This document shows positions 22,272 to 44,966 of a stretch of DNA of 64,000 nt, in pieces. The position numbers and the translations under genes were made by a program. How positions within the stretch are numbered: position 1 is the stretch's first letter; each line of letters opens with the position of its first letter. This DNA comes from Poriferisphaera corsica (GTDB taxonomy: Bacteria; Planctomycetota; Phycisphaerae; Phycisphaerales; Phycisphaeraceae), in NCBI RefSeq assembly GCF_007747445.1, contig NZ_CP036425.1, forward strand, positions 1,100,175-1,164,174. The letters run 5' to 3'. Below the pieces are notes generated by a model. The model was not told the origin of the DNA. It saw only the letters and a list, made by a program, of their open reading frames with translations, and did not search any database.

Positions 22272-22835
22272 ATGGAAAACATCATCACCGGCAAAGCATA
22301 CGTCCTTGGCGATGACATCGATACCGACCAGATCATCCCCGCTGAATTCCTCTCATACGACCCCTCAAAGCCCGAAGAACGCAAGTACTTCGGCATGTAC
22401 GCAAACGTCGGCGTCCCCAAAGGCCAACGCGGCCTCCCCGATGGCGACATCCCTTTCGTACCCGAAAATGAATTCAAAACCGAATACACCATCCTCATCG
22501 GTGGCAAAAACTTCGGCTGCGGCTCATCCCGCGAACACGCACCGCTCGCTATCGCTGAAGCCGGCGCGAAAGTCGTCATCGCTGAATTCTACGCACGTAT
22601 CTTCTTCCGAAACTGCGTCAACGGCGGATACCTGCTTCCATGCGAATCCGTTCAACGTCTCGTCGAAGAGGTCAAAACCGGCGATAACCTCGAAGTCGAC
22701 CTCGAGAAAGCTGAAGTACGCAACACCACCTCCGGCAAGGCATACGCCCTGAAACCACTCGGCGACGTCAAGCCCATTATTGAAGCTGGAGGCGTCTTCG
22801 ACTACGCTCGCCAATCTGGCATGCTCGAAAAATAA
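22272..22835 (+). CDS. leuD: 3-isopropylmalate dehydratase small subunit
   Basis: 187 residues of the aconitase swivel-domain family. With LeuC it isomerises 2- to 3-isopropylmalate in leucine biosynthesis. The signature GKNFGCGSSREHAP is at 78-91 and the start GDDIDTDQIIP (13-23) is the substrate-side loop. The length is shorter than E. coli LeuD (about 200) and fits the archaeal/planctomycete-type small subunit, so it could alternatively serve homoaconitase. GGAG precedes the ATG by seven bases. LeuC is not in the window, so the two subunits are not encoded side by side here. Confidence 0.9.
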   Translation: MENIITGKAYVLGDDIDTDQIIPAEFLSYDPSKPEERKYFGMYANVGVPKGQRGLPDGDIPFVPENEFKTEYTILIGGKNFGCGSSREHAPLAIAEAGAKVVIAEFYARIFFRNCVNGGYLLPCESVQRLVEEVKTGDNLEVDLEKAEVRNTTSGKAYALKPLGDVKPIIEAGGVFDYARQSGMLEK

Positions 22836-22878
22836 ATAGCCTGCCTCCCTCATCCCCCCCTTAAAAAACAATCATCAG

Positions 22879-22902
22879 ACCCGCCCCACGGCGGGTTTTT
22901 TT
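22879..22902 (+). terminator. terminator after leuD
   Basis: Seven-base GC-rich stem ACCCGCC / GGCGGGT with a four-base loop and then six T, 45 bases downstream of the leuD stop. Strong. Confidence 0.9.
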
Positions 22903-22952
22903 ATTCTCCCCATCCTCCTCCCCATCCTCCCCGCCTACATTTTTCTCCTACT

Positions 22953-22977
22953 TCAAGCCCGCCAACAACCAACCCCA
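22953..22977 (+). repeat. hairpin-less copy of the dispersed repeat
   Basis: TCAAGCCCGCC joined directly to AACAACCAACCCCA. The same two flanks surround the hairpin in the full copy at 23081, so this looks like a copy that lost its stem-loop. Confidence 0.55.
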
Positions 22978-23009
22978 TTTCCTTCTCCATTCTCTAACTT
23001 TTTTTCTTC

Positions 23010-23048
23010 TCAAGTAGCCGCGACCTGACAGGTCGCCGGTCTTGACCC
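23010..23048 (+). repeat. hairpin beginning TCAAG, possibly related to the repeat family
   Basis: Seven-base stem GCGACCT / AGGTCGC with GAC loop (23020-23036), enclosed by TCAAG and CTTGA that can also pair. Lies between the decayed and full repeat copies. Related by its 5' TCAAG only, so kinship is uncertain. Confidence 0.4.
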
Positions 23049-23080
23049 AATGCGTATTGAATTGAGCTGATGCGTTTCTT

Positions 23081-23127
23081 TCAAGCCTGCCACCGCCGGT
23101 GGCAGGGTGTTTGCAACAACCAACCCC
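23081..23127 (+). repeat. dispersed hairpin repeat, copy 1 (CCTGCC stem)
   Basis: TCAAG, stem CCTGCC-ACCG, centre, CGGT-GGCAGG, then GGTGTTTGCAACAACCAACC. Shares constant ends with the copies at 29477, 60019, 60816 and 62094; the stem arms are identical to the copy at 62094 and different, but still complementary, in the others. Confidence 0.8.
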
Positions 23128-23455
23128 AATCGCCTGCAATCTCATCCCTCCCCCCGCACCTGCCTCCTTACGCCTTTTTTCTCCCCTCCAGCTTGATGTT
23201 TCGCCAATTCACGCAATCCTTATTCCCTGTTGACAGCCTTGTAGGACACTTTTTGACGTAATTGGCAAGAATTTCCACATTTTCCGCCGATATCCACGGG
23301 CTAGCCGATCGGGAATAATTTCCATGATCCCACGGGTTGGTCACACAATCCCCCCCCCCACCCCCCACTTCCTTCCTCATCCCCTCACGCACCTCCTCAT
23401 TACCTTGAGCCATACCACGCTCAACCAACCTAAAAGCAAACGGAGAATCATCCCC

Positions 23456-24022
23456 ATGGATGCAGCATTCCTAAAAAGCATTCACGACGCCGCCACCGAC
23501 TACCCAACCTATGTCGCCACCGGCAAACCCCAGCAGCAAGCCGACTGGACCGATATCTATAACCAAATCGAACTCACAGATGCTCAAAAGCAGCTTCTTG
23601 CCGAGTTCTCTCGTGAAATGAAAATTATTGTCGTCTCAGGTATCTGGTGCGGCGACTGTGTTCAGCAAGTTCCGCTTATCGAGAAAATTGCTCAAGCTTC
23701 CGATCGCATCGATCTCCGCTACGTAGACCGCGATGAAGTCCCCGAGCTTCGTGATCAGATCACCATTAACCAAGGCACACGCGTCCCTGTCGTCGTCTTC
23801 CTTGCAGAAGATTATGAGCAAGTTAGCTGGTACGGGGACCGCACGCTATGCCGTTATAGACGCCTCGCTGCTCAGCAACTCGGCGGCGCATGCCCACTTC
23901 CAGGAGCACCCGTGCCCGATGAAGAACTTGAAGAGTCACTCCAGTGTTGGCTCAACGAATTTGAGCGCGTCCAACTCCTCCTCCGTCTCTCAGGCCGCCT
24001 CCGCCAAAAACACGGAGATTAA
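23456..24022 (+). CDS. thioredoxin-family protein
   Basis: 188 residues with a thioredoxin fold and active site W-C-G-D-C at 64-68 (Cys65, Cys68), and a cis-proline segment TRVPVVVF near 108. No signal peptide, so cytoplasmic. The N-terminal 50 residues (IHDAATDYPTYVATG...) and a long C-terminal helical part are outside the minimal fold. Such proteins are often annotated as thioredoxin family, of unknown partner. The open frame extends 44 codons upstream, but the ATG at 23456 has GGAG ten bases before it and starts the conserved part. It stands alone between the repeat region and the DksA-like gene. Confidence 0.8.
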   Translation: MDAAFLKSIHDAATDYPTYVATGKPQQQADWTDIYNQIELTDAQKQLLAEFSREMKIIVVSGIWCGDCVQQVPLIEKIAQASDRIDLRYVDRDEVPELRDQITINQGTRVPVVVFLAEDYEQVSWYGDRTLCRYRRLAAQQLGGACPLPGAPVPDEELEESLQCWLNEFERVQLLLRLSGRLRQKHGD

Positions 24023-24415
24023 TCTCCTCCCACTCCAGATTTCATCCCGCACCGCAAAATAACCCTCATGACAGCGCAAACATTACTGAAATCACGCTAG
24101 ACACGCCCATTCCCCGTACCCCCCGCAGCCTCACCCACCTGTAGCAGACAATCATGTAAGTACCTTGCAGGTAAACCTGTGCCGGTCATTCCGATCCGTG
24201 GAATCCAAAGTTCTACAGATCATTAAAATTGCTTGCGGTTTGTTAATCCCAAAGTTAAGATTCGGCCACCTCGGGCCCAATCGCCTGATTCACACGAGAG
24301 AGAGTTCCGGATTCTTTCGATTACACATACCTGTGAATTTTGGTCATTGAAATAAATAATCACTCCCTCTTAGTTGTTTCAGATTAACAACTTACAGAAC
24401 GCATGGAGTCTCACG
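24023..24415. other. intergenic region before histone-like DksA gene
   Basis: About 390 bases without a recognisable gene. Probably holds the promoter of the DksA-like gene. GGAG at 24405 is its ribosome site. No hairpin of note. Confidence 0.5.
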
Positions 24416-25228
24416 TTGGCTAAGAAAAAAGCGACCAAGAAGAAAGTTGCCAAGAAGGCAGCCAGCAAGAAGAAGGTAGCCAAGAAAGCTGCAACGAAGA
24501 AAGCCGCCACCAAAAAAGCGGTCGTTAAGAAAGCTGCAACGAAGAAAGCCGCCACCAAAAAAGCGGTCGTTAAGAAGGCTGCCACGAAAAAGGCTGTGAC
24601 TAAGAAAGCTGCTACCAAAAAGAAAGTGGCAAAGAAGAAAGTGGCCAAAAAAGCAGTCGTTGCCAAGAAAGCCGCGACTAAAAAAGCCGTCACGAAAAAG
24701 GCCGCCGCCAAAAAAGCAGCAACCAAAAAAGTGACTAAAAAGAAATCGACAGCGTCCAAAACCCGACGCAAACCCATCATCCCAAAAGCTCAGGAAGAGG
24801 AAGTTATCGATAATTTCCTTATCGAGCTCACAGAAGATGAACTCAAAAAAATCGATTCTGGCCTAAGTGCCGCCGACCTCGAAGAATTCACCGAGCTTCT
24901 CCTCGAAAAACGTGAAGAAATTATCGGCGACGTCGAGCATATGGAGTCCGCACGCGATAAAGCAGGCAACCTCTCCAACATGCCGCTACACATGGCCGAC
25001 GTCGGTACTGACAATTACGAGCAAGAGTTCACTCTCGGCCTCATGGAGTCTGAACGCCGACTCCTCCGCGATATCGACGCCGCTCTCCTGCGCGTCCGCA
25101 ACGGAACCTACGGCATCTGTGTCCAGTCAGGCAAACCGATTCAACGTGTCCGCCTCGAAATCAAACCATGGGCCAAGTACTCAATTGAAGTTGCCCGTGA
25201 ACGTGAACGCCGCGGCCTGCCGATCTGA
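24416..25228 (+). CDS. DksA/TraR-like protein with histone H1-like lysine-rich N-terminus
   Basis: 270 residues from a TTG start that has GGAG seven bases upstream; an ATG 42 bases earlier is in frame but has no such site. Residues 1-120 are almost only Lys, Ala, Thr and Val in KKAATKKAVVKK-type repeats, like eukaryotic histone H1 tails and bacterial Hc1/AlgP-type proteins. Residues about 135-270 match the DksA/TraR fold: a coiled coil (ADLEEFTELLLEKREEI), then MADVGTDNYEQE and GTYGIC..SGKPI. DksA normally has a C4 zinc finger; here only the first cysteine is left (others are Ser, Ser, Val), so zinc binding is lost. It likely binds DNA and perhaps RNA polymerase. Separate transcript with its own terminator. 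Confidence 0.85.
   Translation: MAKKKATKKKVAKKAASKKKVAKKAATKKAATKKAVVKKAATKKAATKKAVVKKAATKKAVTKKAATKKKVAKKKVAKKAVVAKKAATKKAVTKKAAAKKAATKKVTKKKSTASKTRRKPIIPKAQEEEVIDNFLIELTEDELKKIDSGLSAADLEEFTELLLEKREEIIGDVEHMESARDKAGNLSNMPLHMADVGTDNYEQEFTLGLMESERRLLRDIDAALLRVRNGTYGICVQSGKPIQRVRLEIKPWAKYSIEVARERERRGLPI
24482..24571 (+). repeat. two exact 45-bp tandem copies in the lysine-rich region
   Basis: The unit starting AAGAAAGCTGCAACG at 24482 recurs identically at 24527 and begins again at 24572. It encodes 15 residues of the KKAATKKA type. Exact identity suggests recent slippage duplication. Confidence 0.85.
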
Positions 25229-25301
25229 TTTTTTTCACATCCGCAGCATTTAAACCGATATATAGACTCATTGAGCGTGACCGGCGTAAACTGAGACTAT
25301 C

Positions 25302-25328
25302 AACGCTCTCCTCGTGAGAGCGTTTTTT
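25302..25328 (+). terminator. terminator after DksA-like gene
   Basis: Nine-base stem AACGCTCTC / GAGAGCGTT, five-base loop, then TTTT. About 75 bases after the stop. Followed by an 11-base C run at 25332. Confidence 0.85.
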
Positions 25329-25427
25329 ACACCCCCCCCCCCACACACACACTCACCCTCGCATCCCTCTCATTATTCTCGCTACAATATCGTAAAACTA
25401 ACCTAACCAGCGATTAGAGATACAGAT

Positions 25428-26129
25428 TTGAACCCTGAAAACACACAACCATCTCCTCCATCCCCCCCGTCTCCCGCAAGTGGCACCCCAACGCCCAGCC
25501 TCTGTGCCTACAAATCCCCACGCGCCATCATCGTCTTTCTTGCCGCGACTATAACCCTCCTCGCCGCAGACCTGCTCATCAAGCACTACGCATTCGAGTA
25601 CGTTGCGCCGCATCCGGTCGACATTCTCGCCGCCGCTCCTGACATGACGCCCACCGAATACCCCTCGCTCTCAACCGACGCCAAACGCTATCAAATCTAC
25701 GTATTCCCAACCGCTGCCGATCGCATCCCAACACGAGAAGAACCCGTCGTTGTGATCCCCTACCTCCTCAATCTTCAACTCACGCTCAACACCGGCGCCG
25801 TTTTCGGCCTCGGCAAGGGCGCGCGACCGATCTTCATCGCAATCTCTCTGATCGCCCTTGTTGTCATCTCGCTTTTCTTTGCACGATCACCCGCCAAATC
25901 CCGCCTCTTCCACCTAGGTCTCGCCTGTATCCTCGCCGGTGCACTCGGCAACCTCTACGACCGCGCAGTCTACAGCGCTGTCCGCGACATGTTTCACATG
26001 CTGCCAACAACACGACTCTATCCATGGATCTTCAATTTAGCTGACGTCCAGCTGCTTATCGGGGTTGCGCTTGTGATCCTGCACGGCTGGCTTTATAGCG
26101 ACGAGCAGCCTCAACAACCAAAGCAATAG
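25428..26129 (+). CDS. lspA: lipoprotein signal peptidase (signal peptidase II)
   Basis: 233 residues, TTG start. LspA removes signal peptides from lipoproteins in the inner membrane, which suits the many lipoproteins around. Four membrane segments (about 32-50, 133-152, 161-178, 203-221) and the two catalytic aspartates are visible: Asp187 in YDRAVYSAVRDMF and Asp206 in FNLADVQLLIG, with NTGAVFGL before them. It is longer than E. coli LspA (164) because of a Pro-rich N-terminal tail (about 28 residues) and a larger periplasmic loop (about 60-110). It overlaps the convergent amidotransferase gene by 74 bases. Confidence 0.9.
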   Translation: MNPENTQPSPPSPPSPASGTPTPSLCAYKSPRAIIVFLAATITLLAADLLIKHYAFEYVAPHPVDILAAAPDMTPTEYPSLSTDAKRYQIYVFPTAADRIPTREEPVVVIPYLLNLQLTLNTGAVFGLGKGARPIFIAISLIALVVISLFFARSPAKSRLFHLGLACILAGALGNLYDRAVYSAVRDMFHMLPTTRLYPWIFNLADVQLLIGVALVILHGWLYSDEQPQQPKQ

Positions 26130-26775
26130 TCCCAAGTCCGCACGCATCTCGCGCACTCCGCTCCGGATGCCACTGCACCCCCAAATAGAACGGCTTACTC
26201 GGGTCATCAATCGCCTCAACCGTCCCATCTTCATCACGCGCAACAATTCGCAGATCACCCGGATCTTCAATCGCCTGCCTGTGATAGCTAGTCGTCAAAC
26301 CCGTCACATCATTCAGCACCGAGTCATTCACAACCAGCTCCACTGGATGCTTCAAATCATTCATGTGTTTCGCATGTGACTCTAGCGTTTCAGGTAAACA
26401 CTGATTGATCTTCCCGCCATGCATTAACGCCATTAACTGCATACCCAGACAGATCGCCAAGACCGGATACTCCGAATCTTTATGTATCTCGTTGTACAAA
26501 GCCGTCTCGAACTCTTGCCTCTTTTGGCAAAGCAGATTCGACTTCGGATGCTGTTCATGCCCGAATTTGGCCATATCTAAATCGTCGCCGCCGGTGAAGA
26601 TCATGCCATCGCACAAATCGACGTACTCTTTCACCAACTCAACGCGCTGTGGCAACAGGATCGGGATCCCGCCCGCTTCAGCGACGTAATTCGAGTAACC
26701 CAGCCCAGACTGATATTTGCCTGAGTCCCAGGTGTTGTCTTTTGTATCTACGGTAATTCCAATAATGACTGACAT
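26056..26775 (-). CDS. class I glutamine amidotransferase / peptidase C26 (gamma-glutamyl hydrolase type)
   Basis: 239 residues. Nucleophile Cys109 in AICLGMQLM and the His203/Glu205 pair in QWHPE form the class I amidotransferase triad, and FTGGDDLDM resembles the PuuD group. Members hydrolyse gamma-glutamyl-GABA or similar gamma-glutamyl amides. The open frame extends upstream to 26910, but the conserved part starts at the ATG at 26775 (MSVIIGITVDT). No putrescine genes adjoin, so the substrate is undecided. Its 3' end overlaps lspA by 74 bases on the opposite strand. Divergent from thrC. Confidence 0.82.
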   Translation of the reverse strand: MSVIIGITVDTKDNTWDSGKYQSGLGYSNYVAEAGGIPILLPQRVELVKEYVDLCDGMIFTGGDDLDMAKFGHEQHPKSNLLCQKRQEFETALYNEIHKDSEYPVLAICLGMQLMALMHGGKINQCLPETLESHAKHMNDLKHPVELVVNDSVLNDVTGLTTSYHRQAIEDPGDLRIVARDEDGTVEAIDDPSKPFYLGVQWHPERSARDACGLGTIALVVEAARRYKASRAGSQAQPR

Positions 26776-44114: not shown

Positions 44115-44966
44115 GTGAGTGATCAAGCGAAAAAGTTTGAAACGCTGCTGAAGAAGATAAAGAAAAGCTACAAGCCAGAGGAGTTTCCTCCTCGTGATGG
44201 CGTGACGCAGTTGATCATTGGTTTCCTGACTTGGGAAACGACACGCGATCAGGCTGAGGACGCGCTGGGGGCATTGATGGAAGTGATGGTCGATGTGAAT
44301 GAACTTCGCATCACACACGTTTCAGAGCTTGTTGAAATTATTGGTAAAAAATACCCGTTTGCTCAGGAACGTATCATTCGGCTGCGTGAAGCGCTGAATG
44401 CTGTGTATAACCTTGAGCACGGTGTGACGATGAAGTCGATCGATGGCAAAGGCAAGAAAGAGCAGAAGGCGTATCTTGATGCGTTGCCTGCCGTGCCAAG
44501 CTATGTGAAATCACAGGTCATGCTGTTGTGTTACGGCGGACATGCGATGCCAGTGGATCGACGTTTGGCGTTTTTATTGGAACAAGAGGGGGTAGTCAGC
44601 GATGGAGGTGATCTTCCAGCGGTCGAGTCGTTCTTGCTTAAGCAAGTCAAGGCGAGCGACTGTTTGGAGAGCCATCTATATTTGCAGGCATGGGCCGATG
44701 ACCAGAAGGTTGCCGGCTTGAAGATGAAGAGCACGGTGATTGAGTTGGCGGATAAGCCTCGTGGTTCAGTTAAGAAAACCACGAAAAAGGCTTCGAAATC
44801 CCACTCAGAATCAGCAGCTAAGAAGAGCAGCAAGAAGACGACGGCTAAGAAGTCGAGCAGTACCGCGACTAAAAAAACTGCGGCTAAAAAGACCACTGCA
44901 AAAAAAACTGCTGCAAAGAAAAGTTCCAGTAAACAAACCAAGAAGAAAACCAGTAAGAAGAAGTAA
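44115..44966 (+). CDS. HhH-GPD (endonuclease III-like) protein with lysine-rich C-terminal tail
   Basis: 283 residues, GTG start. Residues 20-205 look like the helical endonuclease III fold: DGVTQLIIGFLTWETTRDQAEDAL matches the first helices, LDALPAVPSYVKSQVMLL the helix-hairpin-helix region, and MPVDRRLAFLL the aspartate loop (Asp of VD). The lysine expected in the L-P-G-V-G-x-K-T-A hairpin is displaced (P-A-V-P-S-Y-V-K-S) and no Fe-S cysteines follow, so glycosylase activity is doubtful. Residues about 213-283 are Lys/Ser/Thr/Ala repeats (KKTAAKKTTAKK), a histone-like tail. It lies between rbfA and hisG, in the same direction with short gaps. Confidence 0.7.
   Translation: MSDQAKKFETLLKKIKKSYKPEEFPPRDGVTQLIIGFLTWETTRDQAEDALGALMEVMVDVNELRITHVSELVEIIGKKYPFAQERIIRLREALNAVYNLEHGVTMKSIDGKGKKEQKAYLDALPAVPSYVKSQVMLLCYGGHAMPVDRRLAFLLEQEGVVSDGGDLPAVESFLLKQVKASDCLESHLYLQAWADDQKVAGLKMKSTVIELADKPRGSVKKTTKKASKSHSESAAKKSSKKTTAKKSSSTATKKTAAKKTTAKKTAAKKSSSKQTKKKTSKKK

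Follow-up and report, generated by a model that had tools for sequence, protein, structure and literature searches.

What is the role of a DksA-like domain that has lost its zinc site and carries a histone H1-like, lysine-rich tail at its N-terminus? Studies of DksA have dealt with its partnership with ppGpp and with its zinc/thiol sensing. The question arises from a gene located in a stretch of 64,000 nucleotides of the Poriferisphaera corsica genome (contig NZ_CP036425.1, positions 1,100,175 to 1,164,174), hereafter the window, to which all coordinates refer. ORF translation and comparison with Pfam and NCBIfam identify it as a tailed, zinc-less DksA/YteA-like gene of 270 aa on the + strand (24416..25228), with an ORF running from a TTG at 24416 to a stop at 25228. 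A Shine-Dalgarno-like GGAG (24405..24408, + strand) is found in the sequence 7 nt 5' of the TTG. The sole earlier in-frame start, a TTG at 24374, received a Shine-Dalgarno motif score of 0 in scripted scoring.

Residues 149-268 (24860..25219, + strand) are predicted to fold like DksA, forming in the model a long antiparallel coiled coil, a globular part and a C-terminal helix. The AlphaFold2 model covers residues 134-270 and was computed from an input of 79 sequences; alignment A1 comprises 79 of 81 sequences, L059 and L079 being omitted on account of their long acidic C-terminal ends. Mean pLDDT is 85 and pTM is 0.74, the coiled-coil tip being the weakest part (pLDDT 52-61, model residues 51-70 of 137). 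A separate model of the full-length protein, built from 15 sequences and with a mean pLDDT of 60, also has a pLDDT below 50 at residues 251-255 of the domain. All seven Foldseek matches in the PDB at E<=0.001 are DksA-family chains. Structural Z-scores over 116-117 residues are 12.9 for DksA2 and 12.8 for E. coli DksA. An unrelated chain comes next, at 9.9; a Z below ~13 can reflect a common helical-hairpin arrangement. In line with the original prediction, the C-terminal part of the protein is predicted to be DksA-like in fold.

Family models place the domain within the DksA superfamily's Pfam entry at some distance from the curated members. PF01258 scores 30.1 bits, over its gathering score of 24.9. 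The best NCBIfam model is YteA (TIGR02890; 81.7 bits, E 5.9e-23, residues 154-265), whose cut-off of 134.4 bits is missed, as are the curated DksA cut-offs (TIGR02420, 56.2 versus 115.5 bits; NF033459, 58.1 versus 105). The best PDB sequence match is a DksA-family protein, Chlamydia trachomatis Dks (6ptg; E 5.8e-12). Genome-wide, PF01258 exceeds its cut-off in this gene only, with five matches below it (E 0.018-0.81), and no other DksA/YteA-type protein passes the thresholds; the genome further has one GreA/GreB match and two HU-type matches.

The former zinc site, located by alignment (25118..25192, + strand), consists of C235 (25118-25120), S238 (25127-25129), S256 (25181-25183) and V259 (25190-25192). 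The C4 zinc set is therefore absent and the first cysteine alone is retained, exactly as originally predicted (first kept, then Ser, Ser, Val). In the named set, window included, the first cysteine is kept in 81/81 proteins and the third in 41/81, and the second and fourth in 0/81 each. Four cysteines are found in 0/45 full-domain proteins of the Phycisphaerae versus 55/65 from other classes, the latter being a non-random sample. Function does not always depend on a zinc finger, as DksA2 is reported to work like DksA without one (PMC9239242; PMC9213440). Judging from the alignment, chlamydial Dks (PDB 6ptg) apparently lacks the four-Cys set too, so zinc loss may have occurred repeatedly among PVC bacteria at large. 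In genome G263 of the same family, the tailed protein is accompanied by a short TraR-like ORF (L209) that by inspection keeps four cysteines. This ORF of 103 aa matches the last third of the model only, without coiled-coil tip and without tail, and was counted as a probable distant TraR-like protein rather than as a full-domain member.

To compare individual residues, E. coli DksA served as alignment reference for the 45 Phycisphaerae full-domain proteins. The coiled-coil tip, HMADVGTD (residues 192-199; 24989..25012, + strand), contains D195 (24998-25000), which aligns with E. coli D74; this equivalence depends on an alignment with short gaps. The D74 equivalent is acidic in 45/45 proteins (43 D, 2 E). 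The DxxDxA tip motif is not intact and reads HxADxG, with D71 replaced by H and A76 by G in 45/45. By hand count, 40 residues separate the tip acid from the first cysteine here, in DksA and in DksA2. The F82 equivalent is F in 30 proteins and L in 15, the L84 equivalent is L in 43/45, and the equivalents of R125, L126 and P130 are kept in 45/45. For E. coli DksA, replacement of D74, F82 or L84 has been reported to abolish or weaken complementation (PMC7461557).

The residues reported to coordinate the ppGpp phosphates in E. coli, namely K98, R91 and K139 (PMC7676912), are absent. In the Poriferisphaera protein R91, K98 and K139 are replaced by S, D and A, respectively, and among the 45 proteins the K98 equivalent is E/D in 42, the K139 equivalent is K in none and the R91 equivalent is S/T in 32. 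As the K98 position is mostly non-basic in other classes too, ppGpp blindness is probably older than both the tail and the zinc loss.

A RelA_SpoT synthetase domain was not found in the Poriferisphaera genome, using a search that was positive in 11/14 named genomes as a control, nor in 115/120 sampled Phycisphaerae genomes. A match is present in the other five (L158-L161, G356), so some members of the class may possess ppGpp synthetases. A published RelA/SpoT survey, in which one planctomycete was included, lists none in the PVC group (PMC3153485). Zinc loss and tail accompany missing ppGpp contacts in a lineage with few RelA/SpoT synthetase domains.

The tail itself, delimited by Pfam HC2, composition and the full-length model, spans residues 1-123 (24416..24784, + strand). 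With 52 K, 34 A, 14 T, 13 V, 2 R and zero D/E, it has the lysine-rich, H1-like character that had been predicted. Pfam HC2 (PF07382) matches residues 2-119 (48.9 bits, cut-off 40, E=1.1e-12); this match is composition-driven, and the tail scores below cut-off with the NCBIfam HC2/H1-like models (29.5 versus 135 and 42.2 versus 80 bits). At E<=0.01 no other HC2 match is found genome-wide. A search of the genome with the tail as query returned the DksA-like gene only at E<=0.001; the search is non-exhaustive, having missed the Lys-rich tail of a protein encoded at 44115-44966 of the window. That protein (+ strand, between rbfA and hisG) carries its tail at the C-terminus, ending KKTSKKK. It has no Pfam match at E<=0.01, and we suspect a NusB-like fold.

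At the DNA level, the tail includes the exact 45-bp tandem repeat noted previously (24482..24571, + strand). Two full copies, 24482-24526 and 24527-24571, are identical, and a partial, less exact third extends to 24592; identity at offset 45 holds over 50 bases. Residues 10-112 are predicted to be disordered, having a pLDDT below 50 and no secondary structure in the full-length model. A partly acidic linker, residues 124-148 (24785..24859, + strand), connects tail and domain, its boundary being inferred from the model range. Tail plus linker measure 137 residues in one other genome of the genus versus 148 here.

Codon statistics bear on whether the tail is translated. Compared with the sister species (L008), whose core is 88% identical, tail plus linker have a pS of 0.735 and a pN of 0.217; dS is saturated in this comparison, making the ratio of distances unusable for this pair. 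Ten pairs were hand-chosen and are non-independent, as loci recur, and 'tail' in these comparisons includes the linker. Tail pN/pS is 0.28-0.43 in 8/10 pairs and 0.81-0.85 in the two with a weakly constrained tail (L051-L083 and L034-L086), whose script-chosen starts are doubtful. Core pN/pS is 0.06-0.31, below that of the tail in 10/10 pairs. In eight named relatives, moreover, the start is fixed, because only one codon separates the GTG of their VAKK start from a preceding in-frame stop, making it the earliest possible start. Codon statistics, stop-adjacent starts and persistence across the order together argue that the tail is translated in frame. This agrees with the original prediction of an in-frame tail from the TTG, for which the GGAG 7 nt upstream and the synonymous bias in 8/10 pairs also speak. 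An untranslated or neutral tail was rejected as the main reading on the basis of codon statistics, starts near stops and order-wide conservation.

Downstream of the gene, a terminator-like hairpin (9 bp, loop 5) followed by a T run is found at 25302..25328 (+ strand; -13.1 kcal/mol, z -4.7), between the DksA-like gene and lspA; it is absent from the pattern-scan output. The lspA gene (signal peptidase II; 25428..26129, + strand), assigned by Pfam and neighbourhood comparison, is a common downstream neighbour in the order. It follows immediately, on the same strand, in 40/72 named loci where this could be judged; in a second set it does so in 30/44 Phycisphaerae loci, including 29/30 in the order, and in 50/64 non-Phycisphaerae loci. 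A thioredoxin-like gene is located upstream in 12/69 loci. A promoter scan yielded one site, on the opposite strand, versus 0.9 expected, and no Rfam family reached its gathering score in the region 22800-26200.

The folded domain is widespread, being detected in 271/292 Planctomycetota genomes at E<=1e-5. Our comparison set consists of 110 proteins, 45 from Phycisphaerae and 65 from other classes. The former represent 45 of 46 matches in 40 genomes and include five second copies in family f8, the 46th match being the short ORF of G263. The latter derive from 64 of 232 genomes with a match and were hand-picked, mostly as best-scoring, so that shares among them may be biased. Loci L001 and L089 correspond to the window itself and were not recounted.

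Searching the phylum for the same fusion, as the original prediction had proposed, revealed a long N-terminal extension in 31/31 compared members of the order to which the window belongs (75-386 residues, given script-chosen starts). A tail was scored as strongly basic if it had at least 60 residues and a net charge of at least 0.25 in some 40-residue window; 27/31 exceed this threshold. The others (L097, L098, L114, L117) have long, less basic extensions. Script-chosen starts are uncertain for L098, L114 and L117 and, outside the class, for L120, L138 and L140. The tail fusion is common in this bacterial order and not a one-genome oddity. The distribution across relatives led us to reject a recent fusion private to this genome.

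Many named relatives have a short basic start only (e.g., VAQKRKKT, ~27 residues). Because tails are short in family f7 (14-23 residues) and almost lacking in the f8 second copies, the tail is dispensable in some members of the class. Five f8 genomes hold two copies each (L094/L198, L099/L154, L110/L199, L109/L200, L091/L153), one basic-tailed with CTCY and the other nearly tail-less with CLSY. A GYVxxNGRRVRxI-type motif, with variants, was seen by eye between tail and DksA domain in f4 (L096, L097, L100, L102, L107, L113, L114) and in L034, L072 and L084-L086; it is absent from the window protein.

Basic tails also occur on 3/55 sampled zinc-bearing homologues of other classes (L139 in f61, L169 in f24, L187 in f55). 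In f61, which belongs to another class, L139, L141 and L176 combine a long N-terminal extension with all four zinc cysteines; L139 is strongly basic, and L141 and L176 miss the charge threshold. The existence of zinc-bearing tailed and zinc-less tail-poor homologues indicates that tail and zinc loss are separable, and the idea that zinc loss is required for, or caused by, the tail is unsupported given zinc-bearing tailed and zinc-less nearly tail-less proteins. Zinc loss and tail are both shared across the clade and, in other parts of the phylum, occur independently. Tree-based counts give six changes for zinc and 11 for the tail; these are rough, as the tree (126 columns, 110 rows) has few columns and 57/107 of its inner branches are open.

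With tip and function residues kept and both the ppGpp contacts and the zinc set lost, we read the domain as a zinc-free, ppGpp-independent secondary-channel factor. It would act in the secondary channel of RNA polymerase without zinc and without ppGpp, and the disordered polycationic tail would emerge from the folded domain at a point outside the channel and bind nearby DNA or RNA. Such binding would enrich the factor locally, both on the nucleoid and around polymerase engaged in transcription. Tethering to DNA or RNA by the tail is suggested by analogy, and we infer polymerase binding, an effect on initiation, nucleic-acid binding and the target of the tail. Overall, we consider it fairly probable that the protein acts in the secondary channel independently of zinc and ppGpp, its tail keeping it close to nucleic acid.

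Other explanations are conceivable. The protein might mainly be a nucleoid protein, its H1-like tail compacting DNA and its DksA fold serving as a scaffold inactive on RNA polymerase, as could be argued from a tail that is the only HC2 match of the genome at E<=0.01 and, in the non-exhaustive tail-query search, the only hit at E<=0.001, next to a domain with its zinc site gone and the curated DksA cut-offs missed. However, that domain evolves more slowly than the tail in 10/10 pairs (0.06-0.31), conserves a tip acid needless for a mere scaffold and is retained nearly without tail in the f8 second copies, and the genome has two HU-type matches besides; we regard this explanation as unlikely. 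DNA is not the only possible ligand of a polycationic tail, which can also bind RNA, ribosomes or polyphosphate, and tail composition cannot discriminate among polyanions. H1-like AlgP, for instance, is reported to help space polyphosphate granules in Pseudomonas (PMC9239181). Instead of DNA, the tail might then target RNA, ribosomes or polyphosphate and place the factor at nascent transcripts or granules, but the attached domain is of an RNA polymerase-binding type and points to the transcription complex, which leaves this explanation similarly improbable in our view.

Still less credible to us is a tail without any role, arising as a neutral low-complexity expansion through slippage of repeat units of 15 and 45 bp. 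The exact tandem repeat, extension lengths of 75-386 residues across the order, the relaxed tails in 2/10 pairs (pN/pS 0.81-0.85) and the parts of the class with a short or nearly absent tail would all fit such an expansion. It is nonetheless difficult to reconcile with a tail pN/pS of 0.28-0.43 in 8/10 pairs, with zero acidic residues among 123, with long extensions in 31/31 order members despite sequence drift, 27/31 of them strongly basic, and with basic tails on 3/55 zinc-bearing homologues of other classes. Extending the secondary-channel interpretation, the H1-like tail could conceivably have replaced both DksA inputs (ppGpp and zinc/thiol), such that nucleoid state and polyanion content set channel occupancy, f61-type tails being separate inventions. 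We hold this to be doubtful, albeit a genuine possibility; if true, growth control of transcription would be coupled directly to chromatin instead of to an alarmone.

Zinc-less DksA proteins, H1-like tails and the union of an RNA polymerase-binding domain with a basic tail are each known separately. A search of the open-licence PMC literature (titles and abstract starts) found no description of a DksA protein with an H1-like tail. Likewise, nothing was found there on a protein uniting these features and serving as the usual DksA-type factor throughout an order that mostly lacks ppGpp synthetases, which is weak evidence of absence. A lineage having the factor without either input and with a tail added makes the role of DksA without ppGpp directly testable. 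Tailed and tail-less, zinc-bearing and zinc-less homologues within one phylum constitute natural controls, and the two-copy genomes of f8 offer a natural pair for tail function.

Compared with known systems, the Poriferisphaera protein resembles E. coli DksA (PDB 1tjl, 5vsw, 7khi) in fold (Z 12.0-12.8), in its D74, F82 and L84 equivalents and in R125 and P130. It differs in lacking the four-Cys set and K98, R91 and K139, in its altered DxxDxA motif and in the addition of a 123-residue H1-like tail. DksA2 of P. aeruginosa (PDB 4ijj) ranks first among the structural matches (Z 12.9, 32% identity over 116 residues) and shares the tip-to-first-Cys spacing of 40 and, with DksA-like function, the lack of a zinc finger. 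In contrast, its tip reads DEADLA, its aligned chain bears no comparable tail, and DksA1 is present in the same organism, whereas the Poriferisphaera protein is the sole one of its kind over threshold in its genome. DksA2 is described as being expressed under zinc starvation alongside DksA1 (PMC9213440). The match to the YteA family (TIGR02890), the best NCBIfam model albeit under cut-off, leaves the tail outside. Chlamydia trachomatis Dks (PDB 6ptg), the best PDB sequence match, is a 132-residue chain without H1-like tail; the chlamydial HC2/histone H1-like family (PF07382), over whose cut-off the tail scores, forms a whole protein there and a tail on another domain here.

In design, the closest parallel is Myxococcus xanthus CarD, which likewise joins an RNA polymerase-binding domain to a disordered basic DNA-binding domain. 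CarD differs in that another type of domain binds RNA polymerase beta and in that its tail is C-terminal, of the HMGA/AT-hook type and accompanied by an acidic segment. A CarD_CdnL domain is absent from the Pfam scan of our protein at E<=1, and the likeness is put forward as a possible design analogy, with no homology claimed. The disordered basic domain of CarD is reported to bind DNA, to maximise activity and to be replaceable by other basic disordered domains (PMC4374960).
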